Positions 7,653 through 21,666 of a DNA stretch of 22,651 nucleotides are shown in pieces; position 1 is the first letter of the stretch; each line of letters begins with the position of its first letter. The notes under the pieces were generated by a model. That model searched no databases. It saw only the letters and a list, made by a program, of their open reading frames with translations, and was not told the origin of the DNA. The DNA is taken from the IMG/VR virus record IMGVR_UViG_3300025840_000274, positions 1-22,651 of that record. One strand, 5' to 3'. Position numbers and translations under genes: made by a program. The DNA comes from a virus.

Positions 7653-7853
7653 TTATTTACTCCCTAATAAATTATTTTCATTTCTTTTTTTCAATTCAAT
7701 TAACCAATTGACTACACTTCGTTGTCCTGCTTTGTGCCAGACAGTTTTTTCATTGTCTTTTAAATCAGGCGCTTTTTCTGGAAAAACTTTATCTAAAAGA
7801 TTAATTAATTCGTCTACTGTGTAGGGTAATTGAATGTCATCTAAATGGTTCAT
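7653..7853 (-). CDS. Conserved hypothetical protein (66 aa)
   Basis: A 66-aa soluble protein. It has the pattern YTVDELINLLDKVFPEKAPDL, an invariant-looking WHKAGQRSVVNWLIELKKR, and a short tail. I recognise this arrangement from small uncharacterised proteins of T7-like marine phages but know of no function. It is the first gene after the promoter-like repeat at 7862-7889 and so would be the leader gene of the structural transcript. Its stop falls two bases before the next start. The ribosome site is AGAAGGAAAAAGGT. Probably an all-helical, nucleic-acid- or protein-binding module, but nothing in the sequence proves it. Confidence 0.7.
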   Translation of the reverse strand: MNHLDDIQLPYTVDELINLLDKVFPEKAPDLKDNEKTVWHKAGQRSVVNWLIELKKRNENNLLGSK

Positions 7854-7861
7854 ACCTTTTT

Positions 7862-7889
7862 CCTTCTAATATGGGTACTATTAACCCCA
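7862..7889 (-). promoter_or_regulatory. Promoter-like hairpin repeat at nrdB/structural boundary (element 1)
   Basis: The minus strand reads GGGGTTAATAGTACCCATA then TTAGAAGGA. It shares GGTTAATAGTACCC-TATTAGAA with copies on each side of the RNA polymerase gene. Here the stem is TATGGG/CCCATA, where the other copy has AGGGGT/ACCCCT; the paired change suggests a conserved hairpin. The nrdB stop codon TAA lies inside it. It would mark the start of late (class III) transcription. Confidence 0.55.
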
Positions 7890-8831
7890 TAAATTTCCAG
7901 TCATACTTCCTTTTGCATATTCTGTTGCTCTGTTTTCAAAGAAATTTGTATGCTCTACACCATTTAAAACCCAATCAAGCCAAGGTAATGGATTATCTTT
8001 AACAGCAAAATTAGGTTTTAAGCCTAGCTGCAACAGTCTTCGGTCTGCAATATGACGGATGTATTGTTTAATTTGGTCTGGCTCTATACCTTCCACACCA
8101 CCTTGTTCAAATGCTAAATCAATAAATTTATCTTCTAATGATACCATGTCTCTAGCAATGTCGTATAAAGTTTTCTTAAAATCATCATTCCAAATGTGTT
8201 TGTTTTCATCAACTAATGCATGAAATAATTTTATTAAACAATCAACATGATGGCTTTCATCTCTTATGGACCAGGTAACTATTTGGCACATTCCTTTCAT
8301 TTTTCCAAATCTTTGAAAATTTAAAAGCATTACAAATGAAGCAAACAATTGTAGTCCTTCACCAAACGCTGAGAATGTTGCAAGTTCTCTTGCCATGCCT
8401 TCAACACCTTCACCTTTATTTCTAAATAAATAATCGTGTTTGTCAGCCATAGCTTTATATTCTTGAAAAGCTTTGTACTCACTATCTGGTAAACCAATTG
8501 TATCATTTAATAATGAATAAGAGTGTGCATGATTAGCTTCACTTGTAGCAATTGAAGATAACATCATTCTTATTTCTGGTGGTTTAAATTTTGGAATATA
8601 ATTATCAAGGTACGCTTGAGCAATATCTACATCGCCTTGCGTAAAGAATTTTAAAATCTGTGTAATTAAATTCTTTTCCTTATCAGTTAATCTTTCATTC
8701 CAATCTCTAACGTCTTCTGCTAATGGCACTTCACTTGGAAGCCAGTGCATTTTTTGTTGTTGGTCGTAAGCTTCAAAAGCCCACGGATATTGAAATGGTT
8801 TGTAATATTCTCTAGTTTTTAATAGACTCAT
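7881..8831 (-). CDS. nrdB: Class I ribonucleotide reductase small subunit
   Basis: A 316-aa ferritin-like R2 subunit that holds the di-metal/tyrosyl-radical cofactor for reduction of ribonucleotides to deoxyribonucleotides. All six metal ligands can be placed with E. coli spacing: D67, E98, H101, E158, E192 and H195. The radical tyrosine is Y105 in SEANHAHSY, so this is not a tyrosine-less class Ic type. It is shorter than E. coli NrdB (376 aa). The C-terminus ends FFENRATEYAKGSMTGNLWG; the tail would dock with NrdA. Its ATG overlaps the speD-like stop as ATGA, so the two are translationally coupled. It supplies dNTPs for phage replication from host RNA. Confidence 0.95.
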   Translation of the reverse strand: MSLLKTREYYKPFQYPWAFEAYDQQQKMHWLPSEVPLAEDVRDWNERLTDKEKNLITQILKFFTQGDVDIAQAYLDNYIPKFKPPEIRMMLSSIATSEANHAHSYSLLNDTIGLPDSEYKAFQEYKAMADKHDYLFRNKGEGVEGMARELATFSAFGEGLQLFASFVMLLNFQRFGKMKGMCQIVTWSIRDESHHVDCLIKLFHALVDENKHIWNDDFKKTLYDIARDMVSLEDKFIDLAFEQGGVEGIEPDQIKQYIRHIADRRLLQLGLKPNFAVKDNPLPWLDWVLNGVEHTNFFENRATEYAKGSMTGNLWG

Positions 8832-17647: not shown

Positions 17648-17689
17648 GTTCTAATAGGGGTACTATTAACCCCTTAGTGGATTGGTTTA
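17648..17689 (-). promoter_or_regulatory. Promoter-like hairpin repeat after RNA polymerase gene (element 2)
   Basis: Minus-strand core GGGGTTAATAGTACCCC then TATTAGAAC, with a 6-bp stem AGGGGT/ACCCCT. It shares about 40 bp of near identity with the copy before the RNA polymerase gene (20174-20215), including the AATCCACTAA-type flank. The RNA polymerase stop codon lies at its upstream edge. It could be the first class II promoter for the phage polymerase, or an RNA-processing hairpin. Confidence 0.6.
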
Positions 17690-20134
17690 TGCAAAGAAAA
17701 ATTCACTCTTTAAAACTTCTTGTATATCAAAGTCCCCTTTTTCAGGAACTGTAGGAAGTTTCTCTTTTTCTTTGTCTGTAAGTATTGGTAACATTGACTG
17801 TTTGAAATCTTCTAACGGACAAGATTGCGAATACAAATCAACAAAAGTTTCTCTAATTGTATCTGCAAGTGTCTGGCTGTCTGCCGCCAATGTTCCAAAA
17901 GAGTCATGAACATTACAAAAATGTGAGACTCCTTTGTCATACGCTTTAACTACAGTCATAAATAAATGCGCTGAGTCTTGAGCGTGTATATAATTTGGTG
18001 GACAACTATTCTTAGCTTTATGTATAGAGTATTTTTCTGTCTCTACATTTATTCTAGGTTTAATCACTTCACCAAATAATTTTGTTTTAACTCTCATAGA
18101 TTTAAATTCTGGATAATCTTGTATCACTGGAAATCCAACTGGATTGTTCCAACGTACAGCGTGTCCAGATTTTGCTAAAACTTTTGCACAATCTTGCAAA
18201 AAAGACATTCCTAATCTTGCAGAAGATAAAACTTCACCCATTGAGTCCCAAATAACACCTGCCAAAAAAGTACAAGCTTGAAAAGCTGAACTTCCAAACG
18301 GATGTATGTCCCCCTGGTCCTTACGTTTTATTAAATCTTCATCTACAAAATCACTACAAGAATATCTTGTTGAGCCATATGGACTAGTCATGATTGCTCT
18401 TTTAACAGTTGAACGTTTAACTCCAAATTGTAACCAAAGTTTTGCAAATTCACTATCAGTCATAGTTTTTAAATTTTCTATAACTTTATCTTTAACTACA
18501 GTGTAAACATCTTGTGGTCTTTCACTGTGTGCTAAATTTACTGCTCTAGCAGAAGGCGTGTGTTTTAAAATTCCACTGTAATGCTGTATTCCGTTACAAC
18601 TTCCGTCTTGGTTACAAATAAAATGACTTTCGTAACCATAACCTTTTTGTTTAAACTCACACCATTCATTTACCCATGCAAGAAATTGAAAAGGTTTGTC
18701 TGCGTGTTCCCAATCTCTAAATGTAAATGGGTCAGATTGTATTTCATCAAACATTTTTTGATTACCCATAACCCATTCTAATTGTTCTTTACGACTGACC
18801 TTGTCTATTCCAAACAGTGCAGCTCCAGTTACAGCTAACCAAAATTCACCGTTGTTTTCTTTTGTAATTTTTTTACCAGTTCCAAACAAATGTAAAGCTT
18901 TTGCAAAGTCAACACCTTGTCCATTTAAATAATTAGTTACATGATAACATCTGCTTCTAAAATCTAAAGTGTGTGCATGATAAAATATTCTGTCTCTAAA
19001 CATATCAGCAATCCACAAAACTTTTGCAAACAATAATCTTTTAGATTTTTGTCTTGCGTTTTCTGTGTGGACCAGGACAGCTTTTTGTCTGTACTCTCGT
19101 CTTGCTTCTTTGTTTGTATCTATATCATGAGGTTTGTTTGGCAAATCTTCTAGTTCAGCTTTTGGTAAACCACCAATAGAAATATTTTTGTCCCATGCTT
19201 TTTTTAAAACATTAAAAACAAAATGATTTATTTTATAGGGTGTCGATTGCATTGCATTAATACCTTTATAAATGATTGGCATTTTTACATCTTTAATTTG
19301 CTGTAAGTTTTCTCTCTTACGATACTTAACTAAGTTTAATGGTTTTATATGTCTTGAATAATAACCACCACCGGTCACTTTTCCCTCTTCCCACATTCTT
19401 GGTGGAACAATTGTCGGAAAATATTCTGGTGCTAAAACTTCTAAAAAATCATTTCGATTGTTTATCCATTCCAAAGTTTTCTCTGTTGGTAATAAAACTT
19501 TTTCTTGTCTCTTTCTTTTTAATTGTGATTTAACTTCACATAATCCAGTAGACAAAACCATAAGTTCTATAAGTTTATAACCTACGTGTACTTTTTCACT
19601 TCGAGTCCACAAAACCCATTCGAGTTCATTCTTTTGTGCTGACTCTCTAAGTTTTCTTCTTTTGTACATATAGCCAAACGACCTTTTGTCTAGGTCTGCT
19701 TTTACAATGCCATAATGTTCTGGTCTGGACTCTTCAAAAGTTCTTAACGCAACTTCGTCCTCAATTTTACTTGCAACGTTTATAGCTGCACTGGTTAATT
19801 TTCTTGCGATTGTGATTGAATTGATAATTGACTTGGCTGTTATTAATGAAGCTATGTCTGGCTCTATTAATGACAGTAATCTTTTGGCAATGGGTTGAAC
19901 ACCCTTCTTGTCATCCTCTTCTACAAATGATTTGATTGCTTCAGAAAGAGGTCTGATTGAATTAGATAATAAAGTTTTACCATAATTAGTAAAACTCTCT
20001 TCACCTCTCTTTTTGTGGTCTTGTAGTCTCTTTTGGAAACGATTAATACCACGATTTCTCATATCCTTTTCTAATTCCAATTGCTCTTTCAAAGATGAAA
20101 AAGGCAATGTGATGTACTTACTTGATTTCAACAT
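17687..20134 (-). CDS. T7-like single-subunit RNA polymerase
   Basis: An 815-aa polymerase (T7 gp1 is 883 aa). The catalytic residues are D510 (DGSCNGIQHYSG), K578 and Y586 (VKRAIMTSPYG) and D744 (VHDSFG). The C-terminus, DIQEVLKSEFFFA, mirrors the T7 ...ESDFAFA end, and the distance from D744 to the end equals that from T7 D812. The specificity-loop region, about residues 670-688 (VIQDYPEFKSMRVKTKLFG), differs from T7, so a different promoter is expected. Start has an AAAGGAGTCGT ribosome site. A promoter-like repeat sits on each side of the gene. It would be made early from host transcription and then drive the rest. Confidence 0.96.
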   Translation of the reverse strand: MLKSSKYITLPFSSLKEQLELEKDMRNRGINRFQKRLQDHKKRGEESFTNYGKTLLSNSIRPLSEAIKSFVEEDDKKGVQPIAKRLLSLIEPDIASLITAKSIINSITIARKLTSAAINVASKIEDEVALRTFEESRPEHYGIVKADLDKRSFGYMYKRRKLRESAQKNELEWVLWTRSEKVHVGYKLIELMVLSTGLCEVKSQLKRKRQEKVLLPTEKTLEWINNRNDFLEVLAPEYFPTIVPPRMWEEGKVTGGGYYSRHIKPLNLVKYRKRENLQQIKDVKMPIIYKGINAMQSTPYKINHFVFNVLKKAWDKNISIGGLPKAELEDLPNKPHDIDTNKEARREYRQKAVLVHTENARQKSKRLLFAKVLWIADMFRDRIFYHAHTLDFRSRCYHVTNYLNGQGVDFAKALHLFGTGKKITKENNGEFWLAVTGAALFGIDKVSRKEQLEWVMGNQKMFDEIQSDPFTFRDWEHADKPFQFLAWVNEWCEFKQKGYGYESHFICNQDGSCNGIQHYSGILKHTPSARAVNLAHSERPQDVYTVVKDKVIENLKTMTDSEFAKLWLQFGVKRSTVKRAIMTSPYGSTRYSCSDFVDEDLIKRKDQGDIHPFGSSAFQACTFLAGVIWDSMGEVLSSARLGMSFLQDCAKVLAKSGHAVRWNNPVGFPVIQDYPEFKSMRVKTKLFGEVIKPRINVETEKYSIHKAKNSCPPNYIHAQDSAHLFMTVVKAYDKGVSHFCNVHDSFGTLAADSQTLADTIRETFVDLYSQSCPLEDFKQSMLPILTDKEKEKLPTVPEKGDFDIQEVLKSEFFFA

Positions 20135-20173
20135 ACGACTCCTTTGATTATAGAGGGACTTGTAGCCCCCTTG

Positions 20174-20215
20174 GTTCTAATAGGGGTACTAATTAATCCC
20201 TTACTGGATTGATTA
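20174..20215 (-). promoter_or_regulatory. Promoter-like repeat before RNA polymerase gene (element 3)
   Basis: Minus-strand core TTAATTAGTACCCC then TATTAGAACC; flanked by AATCCAGTAAGGG. It differs from element 2 by one inserted base and a weaker stem. It lies 40 nt upstream of the RNA polymerase start. Position would allow autoregulation of the polymerase or processing of the early transcript. Confidence 0.55.
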
Positions 20216-20241: not shown

Positions 20242-20391
20242 AGTGTTAAAAGATAGTAATATCAGTGGTAAAACATTAAACACACCGATGGGCTTTATAT
20301 ACCACCAACTGATTAGAAAACCGATGCTCTATCCAACTGAGCTAAGAGCGCAATTTTATCTATCCGATGGTTTACTATATCTTTTAACACT
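20242..20391. repeat. Long inverted repeat enclosing the attachment core
   Basis: AGTGTTAAAAGATAGTAA (20242-20259) is repeated in inverse orientation at 20372-20391 with two extra bases. The arms enclose the tRNA-like core at 20313-20351. Inside there are three direct copies of CCGATG (20285, 20321, 20364). The arms could be integrase arm-type sites or, in RNA, a long stem that closes off the transcript after the integrase gene. Confidence 0.6.
20313..20351 (-). other. attP: attP core: 5' half of tRNA-Arg(UCU)
   Basis: On the minus strand 39 bases read as the start of a tRNA: acceptor strand GCGCTCT, TA, D-stem GCTC, AGTTGGATA, GAGC, A, then anticodon arm TCGGT and loop TTTCTAA with anticodon TCT. 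The sequence then leaves tRNA pairing: no anticodon 3' strand, T arm or acceptor 3' strand follows. It is thus not a tRNA gene but a tRNA-identical attachment core, next to the integrase gene. Break point in or just after the anticodon loop. Confidence 0.8.
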
Positions 20392-20414: not shown

Positions 20415-21317
20415 TTAAGAGGTTTTACGCAACGGTTCTTTACTGTCCGTTGGTTCAATCTCTTTAGTGGATTGTGGTTCTAATACGTTAACAAACGAAG
20501 TTAATCGTGTGCTAAGTACAGTACCGTAACGTTCAATCATTCGGTCATCTTTATGTCCGACCCACGACTGAACAGCTTTAGAAGGAACATCAGCATTTAA
20601 TAATCTGTGTACTAAAGTTCTTCTACAAGCATGAATACCAAATCTTTTGTCATGCTCTAAGTTCATTGCTTTACGAACTTTACGCCAACTAGAGTTTGGT
20701 CTCCACTGAGCAAAATGTCGAAACAATCTTTCACCTGGTTTTTTATCATGTGAAAATCTTTCAACAATTTTTTGACAACGCTTTGTTAATGGAACGCCCC
20801 TTGACTCATTATTTTTTGTATGAGTTAAGACAATTCTATCTTCATAGCAATCACCAACTTTAAGATTTTGCAGCTCAGACAATCTCATTCCAGTATCAAT
20901 TAACATGATAAAGAAATCAGCGTCATCTTTCATGTTCCAAGAACGTAACAAAGAGATTAATAAACTTTCTTCTTCTAAAGTTACAAATCTTAATTCATGT
21001 TTCGGTTCTTTCAACCAACTTATGTATGGCTTTCTCTTCAATTGATAAACTCCATGTCTTCTTAAACAAAAAGTTATCATTGTAGACAAAGCTGACAAGT
21101 ATCTATTAATTGTTGCATTCGATAAATTTCTATCTCTTAACTCTGCAACTAGACCGTCAATCATACTTTCGTCAACGTCAGTTATAAAAGTGTCCTCGCC
21201 CCAAAACTCTATAATCTTTTTTGCACGGTCTTTGACGCTTTCATCTCGCCCCAAATCCCATTGTGTCTTGCAAACTAAATTATAAATTTCTTGCAGCTCT
21301 TTTGGATTAGCTTTCAT
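20415..21317 (-). CDS. int: Tyrosine recombinase / integrase
   Basis: A 300-aa site-specific recombinase that would integrate the phage at the tRNA-Arg site. Catalytic residues are R145 (DTGMRLSELQ), H229 and R232 (IHACRRTL), H255 (SWVGHKDD) and Y264 (MIERYGTV); a likely catalytic Lys is in the HTKNN turn near 168. The N-terminal 100 residues form a SAM-like core-binding domain. The start is placed at 21317 because AGGAAGGAGGTATATA directly precedes that ATG; an in-frame ATG 48 bases upstream (21365) would overlap the MarR-like gene and has no comparable site. The attachment core lies 63 nt after the stop. Confidence 0.93.
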   Translation of the reverse strand: MKANPKELQEIYNLVCKTQWDLGRDESVKDRAKKIIEFWGEDTFITDVDESMIDGLVAELRDRNLSNATINRYLSALSTMITFCLRRHGVYQLKRKPYISWLKEPKHELRFVTLEEESLLISLLRSWNMKDDADFFIMLIDTGMRLSELQNLKVGDCYEDRIVLTHTKNNESRGVPLTKRCQKIVERFSHDKKPGERLFRHFAQWRPNSSWRKVRKAMNLEHDKRFGIHACRRTLVHRLLNADVPSKAVQSWVGHKDDRMIERYGTVLSTRLTSFVNVLEPQSTKEIEPTDSKEPLRKTS

Positions 21318-21348
21318 TATATACCTCCTTCCTATGCTAGATGTAATG

Positions 21349-21666
21349 TTAACTAATTGCAGCATACAATTTTTTTCCTCTGTTAGTTAACTTAACAAGC
21401 TTTCTTCTACGTTCCATGGGGTCTTCTAGGGCTTCAACAAAATTTAACCCTTCCTTTCTTGACCAACTCCATTTTGATAAAAGAGAAACATTACGACTCA
21501 CGGAACTCTGAGCCATATTTAGTTCTGTTGCAATTTTAGTCATAGGAACACCCTCGTTACTTTCGTGTATTCCAACATATAAAAAAACTGCAATAGTTTG
21601 GCTTTGTATGTCTGCATCGAATTTTCTAAAACTTTCGATATGTTTTAGCAGAATAATAGCATTCAT
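21349..21666 (-). CDS. MarR-type winged-helix regulator
   Basis: A 105-aa protein with the MarR-type helix-turn-helix GVPMTKIATELNMAQSSVSRNVSLLSKW, a wing region and the ending KLVKLTNRGKKLYAAIS typical of the family. It is shorter than cellular MarR proteins (about 140 aa), with reduced dimer helices. It lies upstream of integrase and downstream of the early promoter; an inverted repeat sits just before its ribosome site (GAGGACAACTA). No CI-like or Cro-like gene is visible, so this is the best candidate lysogeny regulator in the window. Confidence 0.8.
   Translation of the reverse strand: MNAIILLKHIESFRKFDADIQSQTIAVFLYVGIHESNEGVPMTKIATELNMAQSSVSRNVSLLSKWSWSRKEGLNFVEALEDPMERRRKLVKLTNRGKKLYAAIS

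Follow-up and report, generated by a model that had tools for sequence, protein, structure and literature searches.

The window analysed here, 22,651 nucleotides of the virus record IMGVR_UViG_3300025840_000274, is a piece of an autographivirus genome, with the uncultured phage MedDCM-OCT-S42-C7 (Sieqvirus) as a near relative: the RNA polymerases (RNAPs) of the two are 90% identical across 652 residues. Along the direction of transcription, it encodes a MarR-type regulator, an integrase, the RNAP, SSB and other replication proteins, ribonucleotide reductase (RNR), portal, scaffold and capsid, where genes without a label of their own were named by synteny. The RNAP matches T7 RNAP in PDB with an E-value of 2e-120, and the catalytic motifs are kept in the alignment. 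The MarR-type protein is 92% identical to the product of an annotated MarR gene and has as homologues P-SSP7 gp0.7 and the LUZ100 regulator. The features pertinent to what follows are:

21349 to 21666, minus strand: gene for a MarR-type regulator of 105 aa, which matches phrog_9665 (transcriptional regulator) with E 5e-28 and is a candidate to bind the dyads
20415 to 21365, minus strand: tyrosine integrase gene (Pfam Phage_integrase)
20457 to 20473, no strand assigned: AATCCACTAAAGAGATT, a weaker dyad that lies within the integrase gene at its 3' end and may be another operator
20195 to 20210, no strand assigned: dyad AATCCAGTAAGGGATT abutting promoter site 1, candidate operator by its association with MarR genes
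20174 to 20194, minus strand: predicted promoter site 1, preceding RNAP and running from about -17 to +4 (+1 predicted at 20177), from its match to the core
20154 to 20170, minus strand: G-rich stem-loop predicted for the 5' leader of transcripts from site 1, folded from the predicted +1
17687 to 20134, minus strand: T7-type single-subunit RNA polymerase, 815 aa (Pfam RNA_pol and RPOL_N)
17668 to 17683, no strand assigned: dyad AATCCACTAAGGGGTT, with the RNAP stop codon on one side and promoter site 2 on the other, candidate operator
17648 to 17668, minus strand: predicted promoter site 2, between RNAP and the SSB/replication genes, running from about -17 to +4 (+1 predicted at 17651)
7863 to 7883, minus strand: predicted promoter site 3, between RNR-beta and the portal genes, running from about -17 to +4 (+1 predicted at 7866)

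The +1 positions were assigned by aligning the core of the repeat to T7 and LUZ100 promoters.

Rfam and tRNA scans of the window gave no match. A partial tRNA-like sequence, GCGCTCTTAGCTCAGTTGGATAGAGCATCGGTTTTCTAATC, nevertheless lies between the integrase and RNAP genes (20243-20390, minus strand, the tRNA-like part being 20311-20351), with inverted repeats GTGTTAAAAGATA and TATCTTTTAACAC on either side. A 29-mer of this tRNA remnant occurs in 78 stretches, mostly of Pelagibacteraceae genomes, and a 39-mer has no exact match in genome_contigs. The stretch is a candidate for an attP site.

The core of the repeat, AGTACCCCTATTAGAAC, lies on the minus strand at both 17648-17664 and 20174-20190. 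An earlier reading of the DNA from sequence alone had described two elements flanking the RNAP gene that agree over about 40 bp, and so they do (37 of 43 aligned columns are identical, with one gap). The elements are not limited to two, however. A third copy, AGTACCCATATTAGAAG, occupies 7863-7879, where a gap of 27 bp separates the RNR-beta gene (7881-8831) from the ORF that comes next (7653-7853) and the small genes ahead of portal. This makes three in the window, and complete genomes have five. The pattern AGTACCCNTATTAGAA, allowing up to two mismatches, is thus found three times in the window where 0.05 occurrences are expected, and none of 100 shuffles reached three. It had also been claimed that the repeat is absent inside coding DNA, which is true of the core within the window. 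In its general form, the core is close to WAWTAGTACCCNTATTA followed by GAA, spanning about -17 to +4.

A repeat of about 20 bp with this core sits at the starts of operons, always on the coding strand, at five places per genome. Each of six complete relatives has five copies: before RNAP, after RNAP, between RNR-beta and the portal genes, before the tail fibre, and after terminase. The place before RNAP is kept in all examined relatives that have that flank, and in about 50 IMG/VR loci the core was found before or after RNAP. The sequence-only reading had staked itself on the presence of the motif near the RNAP genes of close relatives, and a search found it there. Genomes were also scanned with matrices from whose training the target genome was left out (for five HTVC120P-type genomes, training used the other clade only). 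The five sites took the top five ranks in five of the six complete genomes, and in the remaining one they ranked 1-4 and 6. In exact-pattern scans, 2.9 million viral contigs yielded 102 sites, which represent 64 distinct contexts. Of the sites, 99 fall at the five places; the remaining three represent two distinct, closely alike sequences with no match to any reference gene. HTVC019P has a clear site neither upstream of RNAP nor directly downstream of terminase.

Could these be host sigma-70 promoters, or sites of a host DNA-binding protein, that the phage carries? Their surroundings are AT-rich, and early phage genes need the host polymerase. Even so, we consider this very improbable, as the core is absent, allowing up to one mismatch, from 26 SAR11 host genomes (those with titles naming Pelagibacteraceae or Pelagibacterales), no intact core is found in HTVC010P, which has no annotated RNA polymerase, and the motif varies with the lineage of the phage RNAP.

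This variation follows the polymerase. The specificity loop of T7 RNAP touches the part of the promoter from -9 to -7, and across pelagiphages, the residues of the RNAP specificity loop covary with promoter letters at about these positions, a correlation over a handful of RNAP lineages. The loop IKPRI goes with CCC at -9 to -7, FAPQI with ACA (in HTVC019P, at four sites of the genome), and IQ-type loops with TGCAC, TGCCC or TCTCCC. The sites within a genome may also change in concert: in the loci L062 and L070, four sites have cores that read TATATGAA in place of TATTAGAA. Unlike these, the pre-fibre-type site in the records of L062 and L072 (G001:3240 and G003:26241) keeps TATTAGAA; possibly this promoter was exchanged along with the tail-fibre module.

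The covariation bears as well on what the sequence-only reading gave as its main alternative, a stem for RNA processing, in which a GGG...CCC hairpin would serve as an RNase III-like cutting site or as a protected mRNA end, with no promoter. The copies after RNAP and before portal are indeed able to pair as a short GGGG/CCCC or TATGGG/CCCATA stem. However, the core persists where there is no stem, at the pre-fibre site (in the closest complete genome, there is essentially none) and after RNAP in L046-L056, where the upstream GGG arm is missing; individual bases stay fixed at positions that pairing by itself would leave free to drift; and it is with the DNA-reading loop of the polymerase that the core covaries. 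Processing would thus be a scarcely credible function of the repeat, and an RNase III-type stem was rejected as a class for it, as was the hairpin as a conserved feature, since the core also occurs without one. Even the label of hairpin misleads, given stems as weak as those measured (z of -0.6 and -1.4). What was called a hairpin is mostly something else, and is probably better read as a DNA operator dyad of the MarR-type regulator, discussed below.

The cores resemble known promoters of single-subunit RNAPs to a moderate degree, so the case for a promoter rests on synteny and covariation. The T7 promoter, TAATACGACTCACTATAG, has the same length and layout as the pelagiphage core and is identical to the three window sites at 9, 11 and 12 of 18 positions. 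Among 25 offsets, the T7 register comes first for two of these sites, and for the third it is second, by one. In that register, the core has the form found in the T7 group (an AT-rich end, a specificity block, a melting block and a purine at +1), but its letters differ from those of T7 at -12, -11 and -8, it continues from +1 as GAAC rather than GGGA, and T7 has a larger set of promoters than the five present here. The sequence-only reading had seen in the ACCC core a likeness to the promoter of Syn5, another marine phage with a single-subunit RNAP (ATTGGGCACCCGTAA; PMC3950665). Both do have ACCC in mid-promoter, but when both are anchored at +1, that of the window is two positions off, and the TAATA end found in the window core is not part of the 15-bp Syn5 promoter. 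The likeness, at 9, 9 and 8 of 18 positions, is weak and no better than that to T7; assignment to a Syn5 type, with ATTGGGCACCCGTAA immediately before +1, was rejected on these matches of 8-9 of 18 and on the different register of ACCC. The sites fit the layout of T7 and LUZ100 as well as, or better than, that of Syn5.

The comparison with the Pseudomonas phage LUZ100 is the more informative, because its promoters phi1-phi8 were mapped experimentally, by ONT-cappable-seq (PMC10134795), while the start sites of pelagiphages are predicted from sequence. The LUZ100 RNAP is related (36% identical), and four of the five pelagiphage places have a counterpart: phi1 precedes RNAP and phi2 follows it, phi6 precedes the connector gene, and phi8 follows terminase. 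The LUZ100 motif and the pelagiphage core have the AT-rich end, A-10, C-9, C-7 and the G at +1 in common, but the LUZ100 promoter, AATTACCACACAG, differs from the core in the specificity region. Since a matrix trained on LUZ100 does not recover the pelagiphage sites, likeness of sequence across families was left out as proof. Similar elements occur around RNAP genes elsewhere: Roseobacter phage CRP-403 has TTAATAACCCTTACTAGAAA after RNAP, and Rhizobium phage RHEph01 has variants of ATTACCCCTC(A/C)CTTA three times around its RNAP gene, which resemble the T3 promoter. The literature searched contained no promoter for the RNA polymerase of any pelagiphage. The five syntenic sites per genome, the covariation with the loop, the concerted change, the absence from host genomes and the places matching those of LUZ100 all bear out the proposal of the sequence-only reading: the phage-encoded single-subunit RNA polymerase very probably has its cognate promoter in the core of the repeat.

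Transcripts predicted to start at site 1 would begin with GAACC and enter a stem-loop within about 8 nt, as seen in all five sequences folded (the window and four relatives). The stem is reminiscent of the T7 phi10 leader. The leader after site 5, past terminase, folds in a weaker or variable fashion. A G-rich stretch right after the promoter is seen at the pre-RNAP and post-terminase sites only (e.g., L028 33842-33870). Separately, the early region contains strand-biased clusters of GGGGCGA (winRC 606-613 and 1400-1450; L028 36424-36583 and 38422-38448; L029 1701-1788; L053 6083-6230 and 7844-7881). They are also found just before the pre-RNAP promoter in L046 and L053, which lack MarR, and are absent from HTVC019P and Eistla.

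The two promoters that flank RNAP have something more. At both, an approximate palindrome of 16 bp, AAYCCANNNNTGGRTT, abuts the core, and allowing up to one mismatch, it occurs nowhere else in the window. There is no dyad of this type beside site 3, nor was it seen at the portal, fibre or terminase promoters of relatives. Dyads like AATCCACTAAAGAGATT lie at the 3' end of integrase also in L028, L019, L029-L033 and L062. HTVC019P-type phages have a related dyad, CTATGCA....TGSATAG, just after RNAP. In form, a palindrome of about 16-20 bp near a promoter is what MarR-family operators look like.

The distribution of the dyad follows that of the regulator. Eistla-type phages without MarR lack the dyad, and so do L046-L056, in which neither a MarR nor an integrase gene was detected (the upstream reach of some of these contigs is short). 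The half-site after RNAP is present in 41 of 45 distinct contexts with MarR and in none of four without (Fisher p 0.0003, uncorrected for phylogeny, with a pattern set after inspection); lineages lacking MarR are few, and the consensus of the dyad was likewise fixed after looking at the sequences. The half-site pattern was unmatched in four distant phages with MarR, though by eye a similar dyad appears in three. Since the dyad is present with a MarR-type gene and missing in lineages without one, the MarR-type regulator probably uses it as its operator.

The integrase gene, however, is missing in the same lineages as MarR, so perhaps the core is a phage promoter and the dyad belongs to another protein, integrase for example. 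Or perhaps it acts in RNA, as a weak terminator: one copy is placed right after the RNAP stop codon, as a terminator might be, and pairing in RNA is possible. Either seems unlikely. No run of T follows the dyad, and it is found also before RNAP and, in weaker form, within the 3' end of integrase, while unseen at three other promoters. The locus L020 keeps most of integrase, yet its MarR gene is undetectable and the pre-RNAP dyad is gone (the post-RNAP dyad remains). Finally, a related dyad lies inside both mapped host promoters of LUZ100. The merged consensus WATSCAYTAGTGSATW, which has no match in the window, matches LUZ100 (L082) eight times where 0.05 are expected, at 377, 578, 6690, 11570, 13196, 14660, 34512 and 35001; one match is just after RNAP and two are inside the host promoters P1 and P2. 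These dyads are candidates for MarR operators across the LUZ100 genome.

A role for MarR-type proteins here has precedent. Small homologues of the window protein are encoded in temperate T7-like phages just before integrase and RNAP, and repression of the RNAP promoter by such a regulator was proposed for these phages in the model for LUZ100, whose authors treat MarR-type control in general terms (PMC10134795). The pMarR of P-SSP7 was shown to act on a host gene (PMC9692554), whereas the candidate operator described here abuts two phage promoters.

Taken jointly, the observed positions, conservation and synteny of the sites, the covariation with the loop and the association with a regulator gene are in all likelihood best explained by a core that is the promoter of the phage RNAP and flanking dyads that are probable MarR operators, together controlling the start of the lytic cycle. 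According to this model, the host polymerase would read the early region, most likely reaching the RNAP gene by read-through. The phage RNAP would bind and start at the predicted points, firing site 1 to transcribe its own gene, in positive autoregulation, and site 2 to transcribe replication genes, while sites 3-5 would serve structure and packaging (the head genes, the tail-fibre genes and, for one, the region past the terminase gene). In a lysogen, the MarR-type protein would bind the two dyads directly, block sites 1 and 2, and keep the prophage silent, and upon its loss, autoregulation of RNAP would set off the lytic programme. We lean, if only slightly, toward a broader version, that a MarR-type repressor silences T7-type prophages through operators abutting the RNAP-flanking promoters, and that an operator close to ATnCACnnGYGnAT just after the RNAP stop codon is common to temperate T7-like phages infecting SAR11, Pseudomonas and Rhizobium.

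Few viruses of the sea are as abundant as pelagiphages. The motif would provide a first transcription map for them as well as a new pair of polymerase and promoter, and the matching variants of loop and promoter would constitute a natural series for studies of specificity. The adjoining dyads make the proposed MarR control of temperate T7-like phages testable on short, defined DNA, and if they do bind the repressor, then the choice of these phages between killing the host and dormancy would become testable as well.
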